From: a virus
IMG/VR virus record: IMGVR_UViG_3300048925_000168
Coordinates: 1-27,964 of that record
Reading direction: 5' to 3' (one strand)
DNA: 27,964 bases
Below the pieces are notes generated by a model. The model had not been told where the DNA came from. It searched no databases and saw only the letters and a program-made list of their open reading frames with translations. Shown in pieces: positions 1,630 to 27,964 of the stretch. How positions within the stretch are numbered: the stretch's first letter is position 1; each line of letters opens with the position of its first letter. Made by a program: the position numbers and the translations under genes.

Positions 1630-4600
1630 TTATGACCATGTCCCGAGTACGATCCGGCCACCACCCGGTATATTGATGGTTACGCCATTACCATTGATAA
1701 CCGTTGTGTTGCCGGAGCCATTGAAAGAAAAATTACCGTTTGTGGCGTAAATCGAGCCGCGAACGGTCACGTTGTTGAACGTCGCGTAGCCTGACTTGTT
1801 GATGTGCCAGCCAACGTTCCCCGTGCCGTCCCAGGTTGTGGACTGGATGTAGCTGCCGATTTTGGTGTTGTCGATAGTCCCTTCACCAATCACAGTATTT
1901 CGGATAAAGGTCTGCCCGTTCTGAATCACGAACGGAAGCGTAACGGTCGCTCCTGCCTGGTGCGTTACCGCGAAGCGATCAGCCAGGAAGATAACCTGCG
2001 ACTGCATCCCGGATGGCGTATTCTCAACGCCGATCCCCATCCCCGCCGCGTAATACTGGCCGTTGCTGGATAACCCGACCTTAATGCTGTACATCGCCTT
2101 CAGGTCGCCGTTGACGTTCGCAATGGCCTGCGCATTGGTGGTGATCGCAGAAGTGTGGCCATTAACGGTCGCCGTGATGCTGTTTACCTGCGTGGCCATA
2201 GCCTGCTGGTAATCCGAAAACGTCTGATTCAGGCTATTAATGGATGCTTTGTTGCCGTTGACGTCCGTCTGCAGACTAAGCAGAGCACGCGCCGTTGCCT
2301 CCTTCTCGTTAACGATCACCTCATCAATGCGGTCCAGCTGCGTGCTGTTACCGGCGACCGTTGCGGATAGCCTTTTGCGTGTGGCGACCTGCGCCAGCCC
2401 GTTCTGGATAATAGCGATTGCCGAGTTTTTCACCCGGCCCGTCATGCCGTCCATGGATACACTGATGTTATCGATGCGCTGGCCCAGCGCGGTATCAGCC
2501 GTCGCCACGGTCTGCTCAAGCTCCGAGAGAGAAGACGATACATCTCCGACCGTGCTGGAGAGCTCATTAACGCTGGTCTGAACCTTCCCGACGTCCTGGG
2601 CGTTTTTGGCGATATCCTTCGCATGCTGCTCAAGTTCATCATTGGCCTGTTTGATGTCGTCAGCCATGCCAGCAATTTTTTCATTGCTGTCCACCGCGTT
2701 CTCGATTAGGTCCTTGAACGTTTCCGACTCTTTCATATCCTCCAGAATGTCATTGGTTATTTCGCTGACATCTATCGAGGACGTGCCCATGACCCAGTCG
2801 GTCCAGTCCCCGGCGTTGCCGATACGGTCAATCAGGCGCGCGCGGTACCACTGGCGAACGCCGGCCGGCATGGGGCCATGCTGATAATCTGCAGCCGGGT
2901 ACGGCACCAGGACCAGCAGTTCAGGATTGGCGTAGTCGGCAGTTGTGGCGCGCTGAATCTCTGTATAGGCCGTGTCGCCAGATCCATCCGGAAATTTCCA
3001 GGTCAGGTCGATATGCCAGACCACATCTTCGGTCGCCAGGAAGTTGAGCGGAGTACCCGGTTTTCCCGTTTTACCGGAGAGATAAGTTGTTTCACCGTAT
3101 CCCCATGGTGACGACGTATCCTGCGCATTCAGCGCCCGGACGCGCACGTCATAGCTGCCCGAATAAATGCCCTGAACCGAGAAACCCTGCGCGCTGGTAA
3201 CCGGAACGTTGATCCAGTCCCCGTTATCCTTGCGCCACTGGGCAACGTACCGGATTGCGCCCTCAACCTTGTCCCATGACACGTCAAGGCTTGCTACCGT
3301 CAGACCCTGAGACACATGATCGCTCTCAGTCACCACGATATTCTTCGGCGCAGACAGGACGCTTATCGGCGTGACGGTGATCGGGGGCGACTCGATCCGA
3401 ACGCCGTCATCGATGTAACGGTATTTGTTTGGATCGTGCTGAACGGCCGTAATTGTGAAACCACCTGTGCTGTCATCGTTGGCAGCGATTGAAGTGACCC
3501 GGAAGTACTGTATCGCGAGGTTATCACTGTCTATCGCCCAGACAGCACCAGCGGCAGGTGCCTGACTGAAGGCCGTAGCCACCGTCACCGTTATTTTATC
3601 GACGCTCACCGCGCTGATTGTCCGCGTCTGGGCTTTTCCGTCGGGCAGGTTAACCACCAGCCGGTCTTTCGCTGCGTAATCTATTTCTCGATCCAGCGTA
3701 ATCTGGCGGCCATTGACCGCCACTATGCGGCCCCCGTTCTCCTTTCCGGAACGGAAAGGATCGGCGATACCGATAATTTCAGCGGGCAGAGGAATATAGC
3801 CGTCCAGCCCCACCCCAAACGATACGGTCCCGTCTTTGGCATTGGAGAGTAATACCCAGCGACCGCGCCGGTGCGCTTCACTTTGCGAGGTGCAGCCGAT
3901 TGCGGTCAGGGACGTTTGCCTGACGTCGTAACGCTCTACAAGCTCTGAATCGTAGACTCCCTCAACGGTATCGCTGTAATGGTTCTGCGGATCGGACCAG
4001 GACACGAGGCAGGAGCTGTAGCGATTCTTGTATGAGCCGCCCGCATAAGTAAACAGCCCATCGATAACGTTTGAGGCGTTATAAACCCAGTCAACATCGT
4101 CCTGCGGGACGTCTGCCTGGACATAAATCTGATCGTTGCCCCAGAACGTTATTCCACGAAATACCGCGGCGAGATCGTTAAGTACCTGCCAGGCGTCCTC
4201 CTGGCTCTGAATGAAAACGTTGCAGGTGAAACGCGGTTCGGTACCACCGGCCCCGTCGGAAACCATTTCGTCGCAATACTGGGCAATTGAATACAGCGCC
4301 CACTTATCCACCATGGACGCATCCACGCGCGTGCCCATGCCGTAAATTTCATCCAGAACCAGATCGTAAAAGATCCAGGCAGGGTTATTGGACCAGGCCA
4401 TTTTGAACCCGCCGGACCATGAACCAGAATAGGTTCGGGTTATCGGATCGTAATTATCCGGAACCTTAATCAGCTTGCCTTTTATCTTACAGGTCACTTT
4501 CGGCGCGCTGCCGTTGAACTGGCTGCTGTCCACTTCGACATACAGGAGCGCGGTTAAAGGATAACGAAGCTTGCTGTCGATGACTTCCGCATACGAAAAC

Positions 4601-5241
4601 ACCTTGAAGGCGTTAACCAGTTTCGAATTTGATCCGCTGGCATCTGCCGTAATACGCCTGACCCTGACAGACCAGCCGGACGTGGATTTTGGCAGATCGA
4701 TACGGTGGTCACGCTGATATTCCGTTGTGGTCTTTCCGTCAAACTTGCCGTTTACAACCGTTTTCCAGGCGCCGCCGTCCGTTGATAAATCGATCGCATA
4801 CTCGGTGACCGTGCCCACCATGTCGCCGTTATCTTTATAGAGATACTGGACCGGAAGGCTGAGCTTGATGCGGATGGCATCCAGGGAAAGATTGGTAAAC
4901 TGGCGCGTCCAGGGCGCGGTGGTGGTGACAGTTGTGCCCACCGCCAGCTCGTTATCGACCAGGGGCATCCCGGCAATATAGGTCTGGTCCTGTGTGCCCT
5001 TGCGGAACTCCCATTTCACGCCGCTGAAGTTGTATTCCCCGCTGTCGTTTGCCAGTGGCGTATCGTTGAGAAAAATGTTCTGAGCGGTCAGGTCGCCCTG
5101 TATTTCCCCCTCAGAAACGGCAATGAGCATTTTTAATTTTGCGACCGACAGCAGATCGTCAGGCTGCTCAACCGGAGTATGTGAACTGCCACCTCCCCCT
5201 TTGGCACCCTGCAGGATGGTTTCTTGTTTAAGAAGCTGCAT
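1630..5241 (-). CDS. J: Central tail fibre / tip attachment protein gpJ
   Basis: A protein of about 1203 residues homologous to lambda gpJ, the tail-tip fibre that forms the distal hub and contacts the host receptor. Lambda-like blocks are plain: DLLSVAKLKMLIAVSEGEIQ near the start, then MVDKWALYSIAQYCD and DGAGGTEPRFTCNVF. Fibronectin III-like domains follow, then a long coiled coil rich in E, Q, D and K (about residues 870-1010), and a DUF1983-like segment (SIKVGLSSNGQYYAAGMGIG) before a glycine-rich C-terminus. I prefer the ATG at 5241, preceded by GGGTGA, over the upstream ATG at 5253, which abuts a terminator. The C-terminal part usually sets receptor specificity and differs from lambda. 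Confidence 0.95.
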   Translation of the reverse strand: MQLLKQETILQGAKGGGGSSHTPVEQPDDLLSVAKLKMLIAVSEGEIQGDLTAQNIFLNDTPLANDSGEYNFSGVKWEFRKGTQDQTYIAGMPLVDNELAVGTTVTTTAPWTRQFTNLSLDAIRIKLSLPVQYLYKDNGDMVGTVTEYAIDLSTDGGAWKTVVNGKFDGKTTTEYQRDHRIDLPKSTSGWSVRVRRITADASGSNSKLVNAFKVFSYAEVIDSKLRYPLTALLYVEVDSSQFNGSAPKVTCKIKGKLIKVPDNYDPITRTYSGSWSGGFKMAWSNNPAWIFYDLVLDEIYGMGTRVDASMVDKWALYSIAQYCDEMVSDGAGGTEPRFTCNVFIQSQEDAWQVLNDLAAVFRGITFWGNDQIYVQADVPQDDVDWVYNASNVIDGLFTYAGGSYKNRYSSCLVSWSDPQNHYSDTVEGVYDSELVERYDVRQTSLTAIGCTSQSEAHRRGRWVLLSNAKDGTVSFGVGLDGYIPLPAEIIGIADPFRSGKENGGRIVAVNGRQITLDREIDYAAKDRLVVNLPDGKAQTRTISAVSVDKITVTVATAFSQAPAAGAVWAIDSDNLAIQYFRVTSIAANDDSTGGFTITAVQHDPNKYRYIDDGVRIESPPITVTPISVLSAPKNIVVTESDHVSQGLTVASLDVSWDKVEGAIRYVAQWRKDNGDWINVPVTSAQGFSVQGIYSGSYDVRVRALNAQDTSSPWGYGETTYLSGKTGKPGTPLNFLATEDVVWHIDLTWKFPDGSGDTAYTEIQRATTADYANPELLVLVPYPAADYQHGPMPAGVRQWYRARLIDRIGNAGDWTDWVMGTSSIDVSEITNDILEDMKESETFKDLIENAVDSNEKIAGMADDIKQANDELEQHAKDIAKNAQDVGKVQTSVNELSSTVGDVSSSLSELEQTVATADTALGQRIDNISVSMDGMTGRVKNSAIAIIQNGLAQVATRKRLSATVAGNSTQLDRIDEVIVNEKEATARALLSLQTDVNGNKASINSLNQTFSDYQQAMATQVNSITATVNGHTSAITTNAQAIANVNGDLKAMYSIKVGLSSNGQYYAAGMGIGVENTPSGMQSQVIFLADRFAVTHQAGATVTLPFVIQNGQTFIRNTVIGEGTIDNTKIGSYIQSTTWDGTGNVGWHINKSGYATFNNVTVRGSIYATNGNFSFNGSGNTTVINGNGVTINIPGGGRIVLGTWS

Positions 5242-20512: not shown

Positions 20513-21055
20513 TTACATGAATTGTTTTATCTTACTTTTTATACGCTTATCTATTTTTAAACGCACCCTCTCGCCAGTAGAAAGCGCAACAACGCAACGT
20601 AGCCTTTCAGGTGATGAATTCACCTTACTTATTCTCATAGCAATTCTTTTTAGCCAATCATCATCTTCGTTAAGAATTATTCGATAATGAGCTTCATCGC
20701 CATGTTCCAAGCGAATTGGAAGCGGATCAGATGCTGGATTTCTAAATAACTGCTGAAATTCATAATCACCATTAACTTCCCAGAAAATTGATTTCAATTT
20801 AACTGCATGAAGAGAACGATTAACTACCGATATAGCTACAACTGATTTATCGTCGACATCAGAAAATATATGTCCAAGCCTTACCTTCCCCCCGATAAAG
20901 GACTTTTTATCCCTAAAAGCTATATAAAGAGAAGTTAGAACTGCTAAAAAGGTTGCTACACCAGCAAACCAAGTTCCTATCATAGACCAAAACGCCCAGT
21001 CAGCCGCATCTCGAGCAGCATTGAGGGTGGCTATAGCCATCACTTTCTCATCCAT
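20513..21055 (-). CDS. Unknown membrane-anchored protein (moron between Rz and cos)
   Basis: A 180-residue protein I do not recognise. A short N-terminal helix is followed by one membrane segment at about residues 22-47 (WSMIGTWFAGVATFLAVLTSLYIAF), then a basic RDKKSF stop-transfer and a soluble domain of about 130 residues with alternating beta strands, ending in a basic tail (RIKSKIKQFM). The ATG at 21055 has GTGAGG 5 bases upstream. It is visibly more AT-rich than its neighbours, has its own terminator, and sits where lambda carries bor, a lysogenic-conversion gene. A lysogen-expressed function such as exclusion or host modification is possible but unproven. A TTATAC -10-like element lies about 35 bases upstream, without a good -35. 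Confidence 0.75.
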   Translation of the reverse strand: MDEKVMAIATLNAARDAADWAFWSMIGTWFAGVATFLAVLTSLYIAFRDKKSFIGGKVRLGHIFSDVDDKSVVAISVVNRSLHAVKLKSIFWEVNGDYEFQQLFRNPASDPLPIRLEHGDEAHYRIILNEDDDWLKRIAMRISKVNSSPERLRCVVALSTGERVRLKIDKRIKSKIKQFM

Positions 21056-21165: not shown

Positions 21166-21681
21166 TCATTGACGCTCCTTCTCAATCTGCCTGATGCCCT
21201 CCAAATTATTGTTACCCTTTTCAATTACGGCCAGCAGCGGTTTAATCCAGAGCACAGCCTGGCAGTACGTTATTGTGTTGGCGGCAGCGGTACGATCATC
21301 GGCTGCGTCAGGTCCGCCGGTATCGGTGTGCAAGGCGCTGGCACGTAAACGGTGCGCGTATTCGAGCAGCCCACCAGCAATGTCAGCAGGAACAGGCAGA
21401 TCACAGGTTTTTTCACGACGGAGAATCTCCCGGTATTCGATAACGGTTTCTTCAGTGCTGGTGTCGATCAGGGAGTTAAGCCTGTTGGCATGTTCGGCAA
21501 CCTGATTGAACCGATTGAAGTTGAGTGCTTGTGAGGCGATCACCTGCCCCTGCAAAGAGTTGTCACTTCGCAGAACGTCGTTTTCGCTCTGAAGGCTGCT
21601 GGCGTCTGAGCAGCTCTTAACGAGGGCGGCTGACAGGCCAGCTATAACGAGAACGCCGATAAGAACCGGATTTATTTTCAT
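21166..21681 (-). CDS. Rz: Inner-membrane spanin Rz
   Basis: A 171-residue i-spanin. It starts [20 protein letters not shown], a single N-terminal membrane anchor at about residues 5-22, and continues as a long periplasmic helical domain with heptad-like regions (SLQSENDVLRSDNSLQGQVI). It acts with the lipoprotein Rz1 to fuse inner and outer membranes in the last step of lysis. The ATG at 21681 overlaps the endolysin stop as ATGA. Longer upstream starts lie inside the endolysin gene and are rejected. The Rz1 gene is nested in its second half. Confidence 0.88.
   Translation of the reverse strand: MKINPVLIGVLVIAGLSAALVKSCSDASSLQSENDVLRSDNSLQGQVIASQALNFNRFNQVAEHANRLNSLIDTSTEETVIEYREILRREKTCDLPVPADIAGGLLEYAHRLRASALHTDTGGPDAADDRTAAANTITYCQAVLWIKPLLAVIEKGNNNLEGIRQIEKERQ
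21270..21416 (-). CDS. Rz1: Outer-membrane spanin lipoprotein Rz1, nested in Rz
   Basis: A 48-codon gene entirely inside Rz in the +1 frame. It starts at a GTG at 21416 with GGGAGA upstream and reads KKPVICLFLLTLLVGCSN, a lipoprotein signal peptide with lipobox LVGC and Cys17 as the lipidated residue. The mature part is short and proline rich (VPAPCTPIPADLTQP, then IVPLPPTQ), as in Rz1 proteins. It is shorter than the lambda Rz1 precursor (60 residues). The embedded arrangement and signature are decisive. Confidence 0.88.
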   Translation of the reverse strand: MKKPVICLFLLTLLVGCSNTRTVYVPAPCTPIPADLTQPMIVPLPPTQ

Positions 21682-22217
21682 TGATCCAGCCCCCAGCACG
21701 CCAGCGCACTTTCCTGATCGCGCCGCTCGACCTGCCCATAGCAGCCATTCTTCTGCCCTTTGGTTAGTCGACAATCACGCCCACCGTCTTTAATCCACCA
21801 GCGGATTGCCTCGCATGCACCGATGCGGTCACCTGCGTTGATGCGCTTATAGAAGGTCGATGGGAAGCATTTACCGGGGCCGATGTTATACGGGCAGAAG
21901 GATGCGATACCCACCTTCTGTGGCTCTGTCAGAGGCACTTTGATATTGCGATCAACCCAGGCTAATGCCTTATCGCGTTCAATAGCGTTAACCTTCCGGC
22001 ATTGTTCCTCAGTGGCCGTCATGCCCTTAACAACACGCCTGCCATTGATAACGGTCACGCCGTGACATAGAGACCAGACCCCACCCGGATCAACAACGGC
22101 CACCAGCGCATTGCCTTCTTTCTCGCTGATGAATTGGTCGAAAATGAGTGGAGCAGATGCACCTGACGCGATTAGTGCCAGCACTGCTGCGCTGAGCTTT
22201 GCTTTGTTCGACATCAT
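21678..22217 (-). CDS. R: SAR endolysin (GH24 lysozyme, R21-like)
   Basis: A 179-residue muramidase that cuts peptidoglycan at lysis. The N-terminus has a weakly hydrophobic Ala/Ser/Gly-rich helix (residues 8-27), a signal-anchor-release segment that tethers the enzyme until the pinholin depolarises the membrane. The catalytic pattern E-x8-D-x5-T is E34, D43 and position 49, which is Ser here ([11 protein letters not shown]). It is Cys-rich (C51, C73 and several near C-terminal cysteines), which may give disulphide control or stability. The ATG at 22217 overlaps the holin stop (ATGA); a second ATG follows directly. It pairs with the phage 21-type holin upstream. Confidence 0.93.
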
Positions 22218-22429
22218 TCACCCCGCGCAGCTTTGCGGCGATCCGCTTTGATTTGGAAGTACAGACTCGTTAACCAGGTCAGCAAACCAAACATGAGGCT
22301 ACCGAGCACACCAATGGCCGCCCATTGAGATGGGGAGACTTTATCGAGGAGCTGAAGCAACCAGTATCCAGTCCCCCCTCCAGATGCTCCGTATGCTATT
22401 CCCGTCGTAATTTTTTCCATTGGATACAT
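22214..22429 (-). CDS. S: Pinholin, S21-like, with dual start
   Basis: A 71-residue holin very close to phage 21 S21: [38 protein letters not shown] and the basic end RRKAARGE. It has two membrane segments: the first (about 8-26) is Gly/Ala rich and leaves the bilayer on triggering, the second (about 36-57) lines the pinhole. It starts MYPMEK with ATGs at 22429 and 22420; GGAGGTGGAG precedes the first. In S21 (MKSMDK) the longer product is an antiholin because of an added Lys, which is absent here. A longer upstream ATG frame from 22612 covers the intergenic region and is rejected. Confidence 0.93.
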
Positions 22430-22532
22430 ACTCCACCTCCGTTCTGTCGAGGCGTTTGGTGAAATAGCCAAGTAATTAGCTATATAATTAGATATATTAC
22501 CCACACAGTGTCCCATGCATGGAGATTTCGAT
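22430..22532 (+). promoter_or_regulatory. AT-rich divergent region with tandem 12-mer, putative moron promoter
   Basis: Between the holin (minus) and the plus-strand moron lies an AT-rich patch with two tandem 12-base units, TAATTAGCTATA and TAATTAGATATA (22473-22496). These include TATAAT-like -10 sequences on the plus strand, but no good -35 at 16-18 bases is visible. It may hold the moron promoter and an operator. Confidence 0.4.
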
Positions 22533-23123
22533 ATGGCCGTTGTTAACCCGCTTGATAAGATAATTGATGATATTGAACAAACTAAGAATGATGGATACAA
22601 AAATTTAGACATTGAAAAAATGCTTATGTATCTCGAGAATTTAAAGCAAGAAAATGTTTATGACCATGATGTTCAGATGGAATTACTTAAGAGCAGCAAT
22701 ACAAGTCAAATTGAAATTGCCAAAATGAATCATGCTGCAAGCCTGGAGGCTTTTCGTTCAGTAATAACTGTCGGAGCAAATGCTGCCAGAGCGTTTATGA
22801 TTATAAATGGCGGAGCAGCAATAGCTCTACTCGCTTTTTTAGGTAATGTTTGGAATAAAGATTCAAGTCCAGATGTGTTGTCATCAATCTTAGGATCACT
22901 TTTAATTTTCTGTATCGGCGTTCTGTGTTCCGGTGTTTGCTCAGGGTTTACTTATCTTGCGCAATATTGTTATGCAACATCAGAATTAGGGTCAGATAGC
23001 AAATGGAAGATGGGAGGCGATGTTAACAATATCATCGCAATTTTGTCAGGGGTTTCTTCTTTGATTCTTTTTGGCGTTGGTGCTTATGTAACTTATGCCT
23101 CTATGGGTAATCAATTTGGTTGA
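22533..23123 (+). CDS. Unknown multi-pass membrane protein (plus-strand moron)
   Basis: A 196-residue protein, the only confident plus-strand gene in the window. The ATG at 22533 has GGAGA 7 bases upstream; an in-frame ATG at 22515 lacks a ribosome site. A soluble helical N-terminal region of about 80 residues ([39 protein letters not shown]-like text) precedes three membrane segments at about 86-106, 115-142 and 165-188. Codon use is AT-rich and unlike the lysis genes. It lies between the late terminator and the holin and is transcribed against the late operon, which points to expression in the lysogen. I do not recognise the family; superinfection exclusion or another lysogenic function is conjecture. 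Confidence 0.8.
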
Positions 23124-23417: not shown

Positions 23418-24023
23418 CTAGCTCTGTTCTGCCAAGAGTTTTCGCGTAGATAAAAAGACCTTCGCCCTGAATATTTCCAGGCACCAGCGTACACGTTTTC
23501 TCGCCTCCCAGTCCGTTAACCACGGTGCGATCGACTGTAATTCCCGCGTAATGTCAGAGATTTTTTTGCGTGTGGTGTAGTACTGCAGACCGACGATATA
23601 AACCGGGTCATTTACATCAAGCGCCTGCAGAACTGACTGCTCGACAAAATCAACGTCATCATCGTGCATGGCTTCATCAATGATGCTGGTGGCTGGCTGT
23701 GGCCAAAGGATAGCGTGGGCACGATTAAGCGCCTGCGGCCCCCTGAATCCTTCACCCCGAGCTTGTTCGAGTGCAGCTGTAAAGCGAGACAATGCCCTGT
23801 CCGACCATCGCCCACCTTTAAGGACATCCCAGCAGGCATGTGCACGGGGTAGACGTGGAGCAGTTCCACCGCTTACACCTTCTCCCCATGTTGTAAGCAA
23901 TGACTTAATCCAGGCCGCCTGAATATCGGTCAGGAGCATGCTTTTACCCAGCCAGCTTTTACGCGGCGCAGTCGCTGCTTTACCCAGCGCTTCGATATGA
24001 TTACGGCGTTGACGTGGTGTCAT
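23418..24023 (-). CDS. Q: Late antitermination regulator, Q-like (DUF1133 type)
   Basis: A 201-residue basic protein starting MTPRQRRNHIEALGKAAT, with a helical central part (DRALSRFTAALEQARGEG) and a C-terminal region QYYTTRKKISDITRELQ then TDWEARKRVRWCLEIFRAK that has the look of a DNA-binding helix-turn-helix. This matches the DUF1133-type proteins found in the Q slot of lambdoid phages. It is followed at once by the strong late promoter and terminator pair, the context expected for Q. The ATG at 24023 has AAGGAG upstream. It would load on RNA polymerase at the late promoter and let it read through the terminators of the late operon; direct biochemical evidence for this family is limited. 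Confidence 0.8.
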   Translation of the reverse strand: MTPRQRRNHIEALGKAATAPRKSWLGKSMLLTDIQAAWIKSLLTTWGEGVSGGTAPRLPRAHACWDVLKGGRWSDRALSRFTAALEQARGEGFRGPQALNRAHAILWPQPATSIIDEAMHDDDVDFVEQSVLQALDVNDPVYIVGLQYYTTRKKISDITRELQSIAPWLTDWEARKRVRWCLEIFRAKVFLSTRKLLAEQS

Positions 24024-24035
24024 CCTGTTCGCTCC

Positions 24036-25055
24036 TTACGCCAGAACGCCGAGCGCGTAGGCCCGGTCCAGCACTCTAATGATCATTTCCAGCTGCGAGC
24101 CATATTTGCGCTCGAATGCCAGGCGGTCGTTATGCAGTTCGGTATGATGTTTTCGGCAAAGTGGAATGGAGAAGATGTCGTGGGCTTTTGTTGCCATGCC
24201 ACCCTGCCCCCATCCGATTAAGTGATGCGGGTCGTCTGATTGCTGCTGGCAGCATTCGCAGGGCTGCGTTTTCACCCAATTCAGATAATCGCGACTTTCC
24301 CAGCGCAGACGCTTTGGGCGCCGCATGAAAGACTGAGGCGGCGCTTGATCCACCACCACACCCACCAGCGGTTCTGTCAGAGCATCAGGCAGGTCAACGG
24401 CTGACACTAATTCCCCAAGGATGCTGGTGGCCGGTACTGCAGGCGTAATATCGCTTTCGCGACCAATCCTGCTTTCTTCAGGTAAACGAAGTGCTTCCCG
24501 GGCGCAACATTCCGGTAAGGCATCCGTTACAGTCTTACGAACAGCCCACCAGCTGAGTTCAGCGAGGGAAATCTCGCGGCTTTTGTCGATACCGAGAGAG
24601 ATACGAATAGAATCCAGAACAAAGGCAATTACGTTTCTGCGTGCCACCTCTGCCAGCGCCTCGGTATGCTGCTCTCGCAACTGAATGTCGCAATAGCCAC
24701 AAAGCAGGATGGAGCCCGGCTCATGGTGCATGATGGTTAGTTCATGATAGTGGTAATCACTGTGAGCACACTGGCAATGTCCGCCACCATACTTCAGCAA
24801 CCAGTAATCAAGCCCGCTTATGCCTCCAGCTGCAGTCAGTACCTTTTTATTCAAAAAGAAGCTTCGCAGCTGCTCATTTTCAGCCAGTGGCTGCCGCACA
24901 TCTGAAACACGACCAGTTTGATACCCGGCCATACTTTCTGGCTGGCGCTCGATCAGCACTCTTCCTGCGGTGAACAACTCCATCAGCTCTCTGCCCGGCT
25001 TCAACAGAACGACACCCAGCTCTCTCGCAATAACAGGTTGAAGAAGAGCACGCAT
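24036..25055 (-). CDS. DUF968-like protein with HNH-type zinc motif
   Basis: A 339-residue protein of the DUF968 group common in the nin-like region of lambdoid phages. The N-terminal two thirds are of unknown fold and include CQCAHSDYHYHE and ILLCGYCDIQL, cysteine/histidine clusters that could bind a metal. The C-terminal part is HNH-like: CECCQQQSDDPHHLIGWG then IPLCRKHHTELHN, with paired cysteines and a His-His core. A recombination or nuclease role beside RusA is inferred from the motif and the neighbour. The ATG at 25055 overlaps the RusA stop (TGATG); a GTG one codon earlier is possible. Confidence 0.82.
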   Translation of the reverse strand: MRALLQPVIARELGVVLLKPGRELMELFTAGRVLIERQPESMAGYQTGRVSDVRQPLAENEQLRSFFLNKKVLTAAGGISGLDYWLLKYGGGHCQCAHSDYHYHELTIMHHEPGSILLCGYCDIQLREQHTEALAEVARRNVIAFVLDSIRISLGIDKSREISLAELSWWAVRKTVTDALPECCAREALRLPEESRIGRESDITPAVPATSILGELVSAVDLPDALTEPLVGVVVDQAPPQSFMRRPKRLRWESRDYLNWVKTQPCECCQQQSDDPHHLIGWGQGGMATKAHDIFSIPLCRKHHTELHNDRLAFERKYGSQLEMIIRVLDRAYALGVLA

Positions 25056-25411
25056 CACTCGCTCTCCCTGATAATAATTTGCCCGTTTTCGCCCCAGAGC
25101 TTTGTTATCCTTGAATCCCAGATATGCGTGTCGTCCTCGAAGAGCGCATCCATCAGAGACTTCATCAGGTTATCAAGATCGGGTTTACCCTGATGGGGCT
25201 GCCCGTTCATCTCTGCACGCTTCTTTTTGCTCCAGCTATTCGGCATCGGAAGAACGAAGGTAACGTGTGAATTTGATTCAGGCATACAAATGCCCAGGAA
25301 CCGGACGTGATCGCAAAAAGCCCGGTAACGCATAACTTCAGGGCGCTTCTTCCATTTGTCGGCACGCGTCATGCGTGGCTTACCCATCGGGAGGATGTTG
25401 TAGACTGTCAC
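25055..25411 (-). CDS. rusA: Holliday junction resolvase RusA
   Basis: A 118-residue homologue of RusA, a homodimeric nuclease that cuts Holliday junctions symmetrically and helps to resolve phage recombination intermediates. The family core KPDLDNLMKSLMDAL with downstream EDDTHI supplies the metal-binding aspartates, followed by ITKLWGENGQIII. I choose the GTG at 25411, preceded by GGGGG at 5 bases; an ATG at 25423 gives four more residues but has no ribosome site. It overlaps or abuts the 66-codon gene upstream and is coupled to the DUF968 gene downstream. Confidence 0.92.
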   Translation of the reverse strand: MTVYNILPMGKPRMTRADKWKKRPEVMRYRAFCDHVRFLGICMPESNSHVTFVLPMPNSWSKKKRAEMNGQPHQGKPDLDNLMKSLMDALFEDDTHIWDSRITKLWGENGQIIIRESE

Positions 25412-25413
25412 GA

Positions 25414-25614
25414 TTACCCCCATGCCCGGGAACGCATGCTTTGCTGTGTCTTTGGAATGGTATTGTGCTGCGGTAGAAGTGCGCTAACTATCCAAAAGCG
25501 AGGATCAATATCGAGACATTTTTCGACGGTAACGCCTTTTGACTGATAACGGGTCATCAGCTCATTGGCTTCTTCGGTTGTCAGCCCGGTGTGAGTGAAC
25601 CAGCTTTTCTTCAT
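25414..25614 (-). CDS. Small unknown phage protein
   Basis: A 66-residue protein starting MKKSWFTHTGLTTEEANELM, with a helix-rich N-terminus and a second half CLDIDPRFWIVSALLPQHN. No known domain is visible. Its ATG overlaps the stop of the mini-gene upstream (ATGA) and its stop overlaps the RusA start region, so the three are co-translated. Similar short proteins occur before RusA in enterobacterial phages, from memory. Function unknown. Confidence 0.7.
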   Translation of the reverse strand: MKKSWFTHTGLTTEEANELMTRYQSKGVTVEKCLDIDPRFWIVSALLPQHNTIPKTQQSMRSRAWG

Positions 25615-25749: not shown

Positions 25750-25778
25750 ATTGTACATTAAGATAAAACGCTCATAAA
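25750..25778 (-). promoter_or_regulatory. Weak candidate promoter before the RusA cluster
   Basis: Minus-strand TTTATG, a 17-base spacer and TACAAT lie 47 bases upstream of the mini-gene ATG. The -10 is good and the -35 poor. It would serve the downstream cluster independently of the AT-rich cassette. Confidence 0.3.
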
Positions 25779-25792
25779 TGAAAGCTATAATC

Positions 25793-26221
25793 TCATTTTT
25801 CAATTTCAGATTGATTCATTATCTTTGTTTCATCATTTTTATTAGCACCAAACAGGTATCCAAGACCCAAAGTAATAATAGGCGTAAAAATCATCCATAA
25901 GTCTTTGATGTCTGAAACTAAATCTGCGACAGAGTAACCGTATGTATGAATAACAATCAAAGATGCGGTAATACAACCGAAGATCACTAGGGTAGTCGAT
26001 ACAATATAGTATATAACATTCGTCTTGGCATGATTCCCTGTACCTATATTTTTGGCATACTCTCCTTCTCGATCATTGTTTTTATCATTAGAACTTGTTG
26101 TACTTGATAGTTCTAACTTATCTATCTTTGTTCTTTTTGTTTTCGGGTCAATGGATGCATCCCCCTGCTGGTCAGCGTCTAAATCATCATCAAGGTCGCT
26201 CATGGTGTAATCTTTACTCAT
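25793..26221 (-). CDS. Unknown protein with two membrane segments (cassette gene 3)
   Basis: A 142-residue protein I do not recognise. The first 65 residues are highly charged and low in complexity (DLDDDLDADQQGD, Ser/Asn/Lys stretches) and probably disordered and cytoplasmic. Two membrane segments follow at about 69-93 (VIYYIVSTTLVIFGCITASL) and 108-126 (LWMIFTPIITLGLGYLFGA), with a short polar tail. The ATG at 26221 has GGAGAG upstream and overlaps the previous stop by 8 bases; a GTG one codon earlier is possible. It is much more AT-rich than the rest of the phage. Confidence 0.75.
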   Translation of the reverse strand: MSKDYTMSDLDDDLDADQQGDASIDPKTKRTKIDKLELSSTTSSNDKNNDREGEYAKNIGTGNHAKTNVIYYIVSTTLVIFGCITASLIVIHTYGYSVADLVSDIKDLWMIFTPIITLGLGYLFGANKNDETKIMNQSEIEK

Positions 26222-26633
26222 CACCGCTCTCCAGAATAACGGCAGGAGTTTTAATCAATTGAAAATGCAGTAAAAATGCGACGCCTGCTTTGTTTTCTAT
26301 ATTAAAGTTTACTTTATACTGAGTTTTGGTCTTAGTGCCATCATCTTTATCAACAGTAACAACATGAAACAAATTAAAAGTTTTACGCAAAAGACCTATA
26401 TTAGATTTCTTTTTGATATATAGGACTTTAAAAAAAGCCTCATTATCCCCACAATCTAAAAAATCAATTTTTGTATCACTAGCTTTCTCGTCAGAGTTTT
26501 CTTCAAAAATATATTTCACTAAAAAATTAATATCTTTGAAATCTAATGAGATTTCACTCTCGGACATTGGAATGATATAACTACCAGAAAACACTATCTC
26601 TTGGGAATTAGTTAGTTTTACTATTGGTTTCAT
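26214..26633 (-). CDS. Unknown soluble protein (cassette gene 2)
   Basis: A 139-residue soluble protein starting MKPIVKLTNSQEIVFSGSYI, with alternating beta strands and two charged loops; no membrane segment, signal peptide or catalytic motif is seen. The ATG at 26633 lies inside the end of the upstream gene (26-base overlap) with AAGGA about 11 bases before it. A longer ATG frame from 26666 has no advantage. Overlaps on both sides place it in one transcript with two membrane proteins, so it may be their cytoplasmic partner. Family unknown. Confidence 0.72.
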   Translation of the reverse strand: MKPIVKLTNSQEIVFSGSYIIPMSESEISLDFKDINFLVKYIFEENSDEKASDTKIDFLDCGDNEAFFKVLYIKKKSNIGLLRKTFNLFHVVTVDKDDGTKTKTQYKVNFNIENKAGVAFLLHFQLIKTPAVILESGDE

Positions 26634-26847
26634 TTGCTTTAGCTTCCTTTGATGGAATGTTATCAATTTTTTTTGCTGGCTGTGACAACTGACAAACCCA
26701 TATGGTTAAAAGAATAATTATGATGACAAATACAGCATGACTAAATAACTTCGCTGCGAACCCCTTTAAAACATAATAGATGAAAGACCACATAGTGAGA
26801 TTATCAAAATAGTCCTTTGACCTAGTTACTTCCTTATTACCATCCAT
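26608..26847 (-). CDS. Small unknown membrane protein (cassette gene 1)
   Basis: A 79-residue protein with a charged N-terminus, an amphipathic stretch (MWSFIYYVLKGFAAKLF) and one strong membrane segment at about 37-55 (AVFVIIIILLTIWVCQL), then a polar Lys/Asn/Ser-rich tail. The ATG at 26847 has GGGTGG six bases upstream. AT-rich codon use matches the two genes that follow and overlap it. No family recognised. Confidence 0.72.
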   Translation of the reverse strand: MDGNKEVTRSKDYFDNLTMWSFIYYVLKGFAAKLFSHAVFVIIIILLTIWVCQLSQPAKKIDNIPSKEAKANETNSKTN

Positions 26848-26990
26848 TTACAACCACCCTTTGTAAGGTAACAAAAAATTATATGCTTAAAATTTATGCA
26901 TTTTATCTCCCAACCCTCTACTGATTTTATACGTTATCTGCTTCAAATAAAAGCACCTTGACCTGTGACAGTTGTCCAGTAACTTCCACC
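26848..26990 (-). promoter_or_regulatory. AT-rich leader of the cassette with candidate -10 elements
   Basis: The region upstream of cassette gene 1 contains TATAAA and TATAAT -10-like boxes on the minus strand and several short AT palindromes, but no convincing -35. A promoter here is likely because the cassette differs in composition from the flanking genes, yet it cannot be placed exactly. Confidence 0.35.
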
Positions 26991-27050
26991 CAGCATCAGC
27001 ATCAGCATCAGCATCAGCATCAGCATCAGCATCAGCATCAGCATCAGCAT
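26991..27050. repeat. Hexanucleotide microsatellite (CAGCAT)10
   Basis: Ten perfect, uninterrupted copies of CAGCAT (ATGCTG on the minus strand). They sit between the 27.3 kb gene and the leader of the AT-rich cassette. On the minus strand one frame reads Met-Leu ten times and continues 15 codons to a TGA at 26943. Confidence 0.98.
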
Positions 27051-27074
27051 CTCAAATTTATCAAAATCAGAAAT

Positions 27075-27323
27075 CTAATTGGGAAGACTTATAGAATTCA
27101 CGTTTGTGATTAGATAACCAGCCTTCGCGAACATTTGTGTAAAGAGAGTAGGAGTTCCTACAATCTCATCATCCTGTAACGGCATGAATGACACCTCATC
27201 CCCGCGTCTGTACATCAGCGCACGCTCACCGTCAGGAAATGAGTGCAGTCTTGCAACGATAACCCCATCGTTGCATCTGATGACCGCGTAACCTTTGCTC
27301 GGTAATTCTTCTTTTTGTTTCAC
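27075..27323 (-). CDS. Small unknown early phage protein
   Basis: An 82-residue protein beginning (V/M)KQKEELPSKGYAVIRCNDG, compact and beta-rich, with YRRGDEVSFMPLQDDEIVGT in the middle. The preferred start is a GTG at 27323 with GGAGG seven bases upstream; an upstream GTG at 27338 has no ribosome site. It lies 40 bases after the DinI-like gene and is probably in the same transcript. Function unknown; no motif seen. Confidence 0.7.
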   Translation of the reverse strand: MKQKEELPSKGYAVIRCNDGVIVARLHSFPDGERALMYRRGDEVSFMPLQDDEIVGTPTLFTQMFAKAGYLITNVNSISLPN

Positions 27324-27362
27324 CAATCCCCCCTCCACACTGGAAAGTTACTGCATGCTGTC

Positions 27363-27596
27363 TCAATAAAACCAGTCGTCTGCGCTTTCCCAGGTCTGCT
27401 GGAGGATTTCCTCAACCTTTTTCTTCGCTTCCTTTTCTCCACCGTAAACACTCAAACCATCTGAGCCTGCGCGGCGTATAACCAGACTGCATTCATCGAA
27501 CTGATTCTGGAGTCGTTTTAATAGTTCTTTTTCCAGCGCCGGGACCGAGCCCTTAGGAAGTTCTTTAATACGATCAATGGTTAATTCAACTTTCAT
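27363..27596 (-). CDS. dinI: DinI-like SOS-response modulator
   Basis: A 77-residue member of the DinI family. It shares the beta-alpha-beta-beta-alpha plan, the start MKVELTIDRIKELPKG and the C-terminal EILQQTWESADDWF, which in E. coli DinI forms the acidic helix that binds RecA. DinI proteins tune RecA filaments and the cleavage of LexA and UmuD. In phages they may adjust repressor cleavage during induction (inference). The ATG at 27596 has GGAGG five bases upstream, and a perfect LexA box overlaps its promoter. Confidence 0.92.
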   Translation of the reverse strand: MKVELTIDRIKELPKGSVPALEKELLKRLQNQFDECSLVIRRAGSDGLSVYGGEKEAKKKVEEILQQTWESADDWFY

Positions 27597-27616: not shown

Positions 27617-27632
27617 CTGTATATTAATACAG
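27617..27632 (-). promoter_or_regulatory. LexA (SOS) box for the DinI-like gene
   Basis: CTGTATTAATATACAG on the minus strand fits CTGT-N8-ACAG perfectly with an AT-rich centre. It lies 21 bases upstream of the ATG and overlaps the predicted -10. Confidence 0.9.
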
Positions 27633-27656: not shown

Positions 27657-27964
27657 ACGCTTTAACCGCACGAAATGCAAATGCGCATATCAGTTGATGA
27701 AAAAAAATCGCTGTAAGTGGCTTTCTATTAACGTGAAAACTCATTGGATTGGTATAGATCATCAAAATTAGTGGGCACTAAAACAAAGTTCATCTAACAA
27801 AAACTTCAGCACAAGCATTGCTCGTGGAGTCCGCTTAGTGCCAAAAGCAGGCATTTCTCCTTCGCAACCATTATGTATTAATCACTGGGGGTCAGGTCGT
27901 TTTCTATGAGGTCTATGCATTTTCTGAATGCCAGTTAAACGCAAACGTGATGACTGGTAAGAGA
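27657..27964. other. Right-edge region without a clear long gene
   Basis: About 300 bases upstream of the DinI-like promoter hold no frame longer than 60 codons on either strand. One mini-ORF is listed separately. The stretch probably belongs to the early operon outside the window. Confidence 0.6.
27768..27854 (-). CDS. 28-residue mini-ORF with strong ribosome site
   Basis: An ATG at 27854, preceded by GAAGGAGAA, opens a 28-codon frame (MPAFGTKRTPRAMLVLKFLL onward). The ribosome site is closer to the ATG than usual (2 bases). The basic N-terminal part followed by a hydrophobic stretch looks like a real peptide, but it may be a remnant. Function unknown. Confidence 0.4.
   Translation of the reverse strand: MPAFGTKRTPRAMLVLKFLLDELCFSAH

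Follow-up and report, generated by a model that had tools for sequence, protein, structure and literature searches.

A DUF6864-like gene and a two-helix membrane gene form a linked pair that may serve as anti-phage cargo of prophages and plasmids

Introduction

What is a compact cassette of three AT-rich genes doing between the dinI-like and rusA-like genes of a phage early region? The cassette lies at positions 25793-26847 of the window, by which we mean the whole stretch of viral DNA analysed here (27,964 nucleotides; IMG/VR record IMGVR_UViG_3300048925_000168), and consists of three minus-strand ORFs, g1, g2 and g3. An earlier note, made from the letters of the sequence, had proposed that these genes encode two membrane proteins and one soluble protein, that none of them is recognised, and that together they are phage cargo, perhaps an undescribed superinfection exclusion or defence system.

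The genes of the cassette

The three ORFs are as follows.

26608-26847, minus strand: g1, 79 aa, one strong membrane segment; the accessory first gene of the three-gene form
26214-26633, minus strand: g2, 139 aa from an inner ATG, soluble, predicted all-beta; a divergent DUF6864 relative
25793-26221, minus strand: g3, 142 aa from an ATG, two membrane helices, signature IGTGxxAK...W..FTPIITLxLGYxFG

When ATG starts are assumed, g1 and g2 overlap by 26 bases and g2 and g3 by 8 bases, and the GC content of the cassette is 32.9% compared with 52.9% for the whole window, confirming the overlaps and the AT-richness that the earlier note had described. A TTG at 26666 and a GTG at 26224 are possible alternative starts for g2 and g3, respectively. 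The division into two membrane proteins and one soluble protein also holds at the level of prediction. A 19-residue Kyte-Doolittle maximum of 2.7 marks one strong hydrophobic segment in g1, g2 is modelled as an all-beta protein of eight strands at a mean pLDDT of 79, and the model of g3 contains long helices at residues 64-93 and 99-140, where alone it is confident, together with a disordered N-terminus. We therefore treat g3 and g1 as predicted membrane proteins. The cassette genes look real, because dN/dS is low in close pairs of the three-gene form (g1, 0.20-0.25; g2, 0.07-0.13; g3, 0.06-0.07), and values in this range indicate that g1 is under purifying selection in these pairs.

The insertion slot and its flanks

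The cassette is flanked by ordinary early-region genes, which include a DUF968/HNH gene on the downstream side, and matches to PF06183 and PF05866 show that its placement between dinI and rusA had been read correctly.

27363-27596, minus strand: dinI-like gene, upstream flank (PF06183, E 1e-23)
27075-27338, minus strand: phrog_1813 gene, upstream flank, with its final 38 bases inside the inserted block
25751-27112: AT-rich inserted block that holds the cassette; homology with prophages L014 and L015 ends at 27113 and 25749/25750
26991-27051: CATCAG tandem repeat, ~10 copies (9 full units), between the upstream gene and g1
25414-25614, minus strand: phrog_1212 gene, downstream flank (PHROG match)
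25055-25423, minus strand: rusA-like resolvase gene, downstream flank (PF05866, E 4e-14)

Flotzy, mEp213 and other E. coli phages have structural genes with ~97% identity to those of the window, and two E. coli prophages, L014 and L015, have the early region of the window in common. The points at which homology breaks, window positions 27113 and 25749/25750, are identical in both. Between them, L015 (isolate SC476) has only 29 bases and no cassette, L014 (strain 1344_LBHALD) has a colicin-like tRNase gene and an immunity gene, and the window has 1362 AT-rich bases that comprise the cassette and the CATCAG repeat. A site that is empty in one prophage and differently filled in two related elements shows that the dinI-rusA region contains a slot for exchangeable cargo, and this comparison supports the proposal that the cassette is cargo in a swappable prophage site. 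E. coli genomes matched the flanks only, and the phage collection contained no related DNA. Other prophages are worth searching for cargo at this early-region slot.

Pairing of g2 and g3

A search with g2 by sequence alone found no relatives in phage records, plasmids or genome contigs, and among viral contigs it returned just two near-copies of the same phage region; the link of g2 to a known family surfaced through searches with g3 only. By tblastn, g3 matched small E. coli plasmids, a Pantoea plasmid and an Acinetobacter prophage, and in all of these loci the gene directly upstream was DUF6864 by annotation or by Pfam. Searching viral contigs with four g3 proteins recovered 55 loci. In 84,980 species genomes the search gave 14 loci, and the pairing was present in 14 of 14. 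In total, a g2 (DUF6864-like) gene stands directly upstream of g3 in 81 of 82 g3 loci, a set that includes near-copies and the window itself and holds 57 distinct g3 sequences; the exception (L023) is a locus cut by a contig end. The two genes are mostly separated by a few-base gap or overlap by a few bases, and no g2-g3 fusion ORF was found among the loci examined. The P0009 search returned its own phages only and no plasmid relatives, and an hhalign comparison of A4 with A2 was set aside as evidence, one sequence being common to both sides.

Because these loci had been found with g3, we also took the reverse path, starting from DUF6864 in evenly drawn genomes. DUF6864 was found in 4 of 392 genomes from the family of Cedecea (one over the cut-off), 4 of 369 from its class (two over the cut-off) and 4 of 395 from the Bacteroidota (three over the cut-off). 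Two of the new loci found in this way (L089, L092) have a recognisable g3 partner, and two others (L093, L094) have an overlapping small hydrophobic gene whose sequence is not recognisable as g3. The g3 profile matched exactly two of the 395 Bacteroidota genomes, each with an adjacent DUF6864 gene. Weak DUF6864 matches in three Enterobacteriaceae loci (L086-L088) stood without a membrane partner and are probably unrelated. The earlier note had named a lack of co-conservation as grounds for abandoning its proposal; the searches from both directions instead show that g2 and g3 are a tightly linked gene pair that occurs in many unrelated places.

Relationship of g2 to DUF6864

The view that none of the three genes is recognised proved wrong for g2. 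On its own, g2 aligns to Pfam DUF6864 (PF21732) with 16.7 bits and E 0.0066; this lies below the gathering cut-off of 27 bits, and we therefore call g2 a divergent relative rather than a formal DUF6864 member. A profile built from 43 relatives with the g2 of the window left out finds g2 among the window ORFs at E 2.9e-5, and a comparable profile of 33 relatives finds the left-out g3 at E 1e-29. The position of g2 is the position that DUF6864 occupies elsewhere, with g3 directly downstream, and NCBI annotates the plasmid counterparts of g2 as 'DUF6864 domain-containing'. The likeness to DUF6864 thus consists of a weak alignment and a location upstream of the same membrane gene, whereas g2 differs in scoring under the curated cut-off and, like the g3 of the window, in having no match in PHROGs, where phrog_32866 matches 23 of 44 g2 relatives. 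In the literature searched, we found no mention of DUF6864 (PF21732; phrog_32866), and none of the libraries used assigns it a function.

Comparison of g2 with the PDB gave nothing significant by fold (Foldseek best E 0.1; VIA best Z 4.8, to unrelated proteins) or by profile, and g3 had no PDB match by profile. One match, at E 5e-5 with a TM-score of 0.55-0.61, was to the model of an uncharacterised viral protein, A0A8S5UAT7.

Genomic spread of the pair

The pair occurs on chromosomes and small plasmids as well as in phages and prophages, and its range extends from the Pseudomonadota to the Bacteroidota and Bacillota. Its positions in phages, which we named from PHROG matches of flanking genes, vary widely. 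In P2-like loci (L019-L021) it lies between the tail fibre assembly and tail sheath FI genes; elsewhere it lies between phrog_791 and tape-measure genes (L039), between the major tail protein gene and phrog_791 (L030), between tape-measure and minor tail genes (L036), among other tail genes (L022), beside integrases (L018, L044, L055, L059) and, in Acinetobacter-type prophages (L064), downstream of a Q-like gene. Two plasmids of 2.5-2.9 kb (L010, L013) carry the pair with little other cargo, and some chromosomal copies have no obvious phage genes nearby. This spread across unrelated elements marks the pair as a cargo module rather than a phage core function. The g1, g2 and g3 proteins had no match to replication or nin-region functions, the other finding that was to have counted against the cargo proposal.

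Ten hand-picked neighbours of unknown role were scanned for defence domains, and the matches were mostly weak. They comprise a match to the PADLOC candidate PDC-S52 in L046 (E 1e-50), an RT-protease-like trypsin gene in L092, weak HEPN matches in L073 and L077, and an AAA gene with a weak NACHT match in L059. As the choice of these ten genes was non-random, the defence-like neighbourhood of the pair is suggestive only.

The first gene, g1

Is the cassette a three-gene unit, as had been proposed? A small membrane ORF also adjoins g2 in a plasmid (L010), in five phage loci (L016, L018, L019, L020, L021) and in Cedecea neteri (L069). All of these three-gene loci and the window fall into one g3 group of 11 rows (support 98/96), which also contains the two-gene loci L013, L035 and L044; L017 is the L018 sequence cut at a contig end. 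Since all three-gene loci fall in this one group, the three-gene unit is a recurring form that is confined to the g3 clade holding the window. Co-conservation applies to g2 and g3: the core of the unit is the pair of DUF6864 and two-helix genes, with g1 added in one clade only.

The g1 protein of the window has no detectable sequence similarity to other g1 proteins (4.4 bits, a score reached by 125 of 500 shuffles), so that its equivalence to them rests on position, size and hydrophobicity. The g1 of L018, and of no other locus, has a weak match to the PADLOC model 'Effector 2TM' (E 0.002).

Proposed function and its alternatives

We propose, with a probability of roughly 0.4, that the cassette is mobile cargo (a moron) that protects the lysogen against other phages, a role that we infer from context and architecture. 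This reading draws on the pairing of the genes, the swappable slot, the many phage positions and some defence-like neighbours, and its closest working analogy is provided by soluble-plus-membrane prophage exclusion pairs. Counting against it, PADLOC models matched neither g2, g3 nor the g1 of the window, the PDB gave no fold match for g2, the defence-like neighbours came from a hand-picked and mostly weak set, and the g1 of the window does not resemble other g1 proteins in sequence. The g2 protein would be a cytosolic sensor or regulator that is docked on g3 and holds it silent, perhaps at the conserved IGTGxxAK stretch before the first g3 helix. Upon infection, g2 would release or trigger g3, which would assemble in the inner membrane and damage or depolarise it, such that the infection aborts; in the one clade that has it, g1 would act as a third subunit and tune the membrane component. 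The g3 protein is more conserved than g2, as expected of an effector in comparison to its sensor (2066 of 2145 locus pairs, which are not independent of one another). Such a contrast, with the membrane part held more constant than the soluble part, fits either an effector and sensor or a toxin and antitoxin.

One alternative is superinfection exclusion at DNA entry, in which g3, with or without g1, would block the injection apparatus of tailed phages in the absence of cell death, and g2 would be a chaperone or a cytosolic cap. By analogy, this could resemble the action of the inner-membrane proteins HK97 gp15 and P22 SieA (PMC10883804). For long-tailed phages, escape from such exclusion maps to the tape-measure region (PMC10883804), and the pair adjoins the tape-measure gene in several phages, although that location is one of many pair positions. 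In addition, P22 SieA is reportedly sufficient alone, whereas g3 is nearly always accompanied by g2. We regard a block at DNA entry as unlikely, if still credible.

The same pattern of conservation bears on toxin-antitoxin function, in which g2 would be the antitoxin to a membrane toxin, g3, and the two together would stabilise prophages and small plasmids. The faster evolution of g2, the order of an upstream soluble gene and an overlapping small membrane gene, and the presence on small plasmids with little else to carry are all consistent with element maintenance. However, the cassette proteins matched no toxin or antitoxin family in Pfam, PHROGs or NCBIfam, and the additional g1, like the IGTGxxAK signature that precedes the first helix of g3, would exceed the needs of a simple membrane toxin. 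On balance, we consider this role improbable.

Lysogenic-conversion cargo could also benefit the host in ways unrelated to phages, such as envelope stress, transport or bacteriocin resistance. The bacteriocin and immunity genes that fill the slot in L014 and the chromosomal copies lying apart from obvious phage genes point in this direction, but presence in many phages and plasmids, rarity and patchiness (<=1-2% of species) fit conflict genes better, and we think such a benefit quite improbable. A lysis role, with g3 as holin and g2 as antiholin, would suit a small two-helix membrane protein but can be dismissed as highly improbable, given that the family occupies varied non-lysis positions and plasmids and that the window has a separate lysis-like cluster at 21678-22612, read from sequence as a hydrophobic 132-aa ORF beside a lysozyme-like ORF.

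Returning to protection of the lysogen against other phages, a broader form of this proposal is more tentative: DUF6864 and the two-helix protein might together constitute an anti-phage system that spans phyla and is undescribed. In it, a rapidly changing beta-domain sensor would gate a conserved two-helix membrane effector, the effector would be shared with other soluble partners, and a third membrane subunit would have been added in one Enterobacterales phage and plasmid clade. The claim that the system is undescribed agrees with PADLOC-DB 2.0.0, where no model for a known defence system matched g2 or g3 (of the window or its relatives) or the g1 of the window. Prophage exclusion modules are a known kind, and as far as we can tell from the literature and libraries searched, this one is undescribed. 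If the proposal is true, DUF6864, which occurs on chromosomes, small plasmids and phages across three or more phyla, would acquire a partner gene, a known architecture and a role open to testing, and the cassette would become a compact (~1 kb) candidate exclusion system that can be assayed in E. coli.

Two loci outside the pair contain two-helix genes with a g3-like C-terminus behind different soluble genes (L097, 1495-1803; L098, 270-545), and the soluble partner in L098 is a Cys-X2-Cys protein. These loci hint that the membrane module is modular and possibly common to several systems.

Comparison with known systems

The soluble and membrane prophage exclusion pairs RexAB and gp30/gp31 of Mycobacterium phage Butters, for which phage protection has been shown, resemble the cassette in being adjacent temperate-phage cargo genes, one soluble and one membrane (PMC7542560). 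The cassette differs in that phage protection is, in its case, a proposed role and that a second small membrane gene (g1) precedes the pair, and the searches made here brought up no sequence relation to these systems. The 2TM-beta effectors of CBASS (Cap15) and Panoptes also combine two helices with a beta domain (PMC12657230), but they do so in one polypeptide rather than in separate ORFs, and they are encoded alongside a nucleotide cyclase, of which there is none among the scanned neighbouring genes of the window. A comparison of the predicted fold of g2 with the PDB, which bears on a possible Cap15-like beta-barrel, gave no significant match, its best VIA hits being to unrelated proteins. 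The P2 fun(Z) record is a single gene of 1587 bases, annotated as blocking T5, that lies before tail sheath FI, the same place as the cassette in L019-L021; fun(Z) differs in being a single larger gene, and we claim a common place and no sequence relation. A system of three hypothetical proteins in P2-like phages was reportedly described by Rousset in 2022; the PADLOC library, which may or may not cover that system, gave no match to the proteins of the window.

Regulatory elements and other cargo sites

A LexA consensus stands before dinI.

27617-27632: LexA consensus CTGTATATTAATACAG

Because of this site, the cassette might be transcribed by read-through from the dinI promoter after DNA damage. 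In a scan for sigma-70 promoters upstream of g1, none stood out and sites were not more numerous than in shuffled sequence, and scans of the window for tRNA and Rfam RNAs found none. The CATCAG repeat has 9 full units in the window and 17 in two near-identical IMG/VR contigs (L006, L007), for which a single base is the only other difference from the window over kilobases. The repeat may be a variable element that affects expression, or the difference in copy number may come from assembly. In L014, the colicin-like tRNase and immunity genes (3039-4880) have a LexA-like box, CTGTATGTATATACAG, upstream.

Beyond window position 27846 the L004 contig takes a different course, with genes that look phosphotransferase-like and glyoxalase-like from their sequence, and L003 continues to match the window through its end at 27964. 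The gene at 20513-21055 is AT-rich, encodes 180 aa with a hydrophobic segment (phrog_16957) and separates the terminase small subunit gene from the lysis genes. Phage Flotzy has two other genes there, one of them annotated as a kinase, and the position is likely a second cargo site. A hydrophobic gene of 202 aa at 22515-23123, also AT-rich and without a family match, runs on the opposite strand; it is flanked by the lysis genes and by the gene at 23418-24023, and is possibly a third cargo gene.
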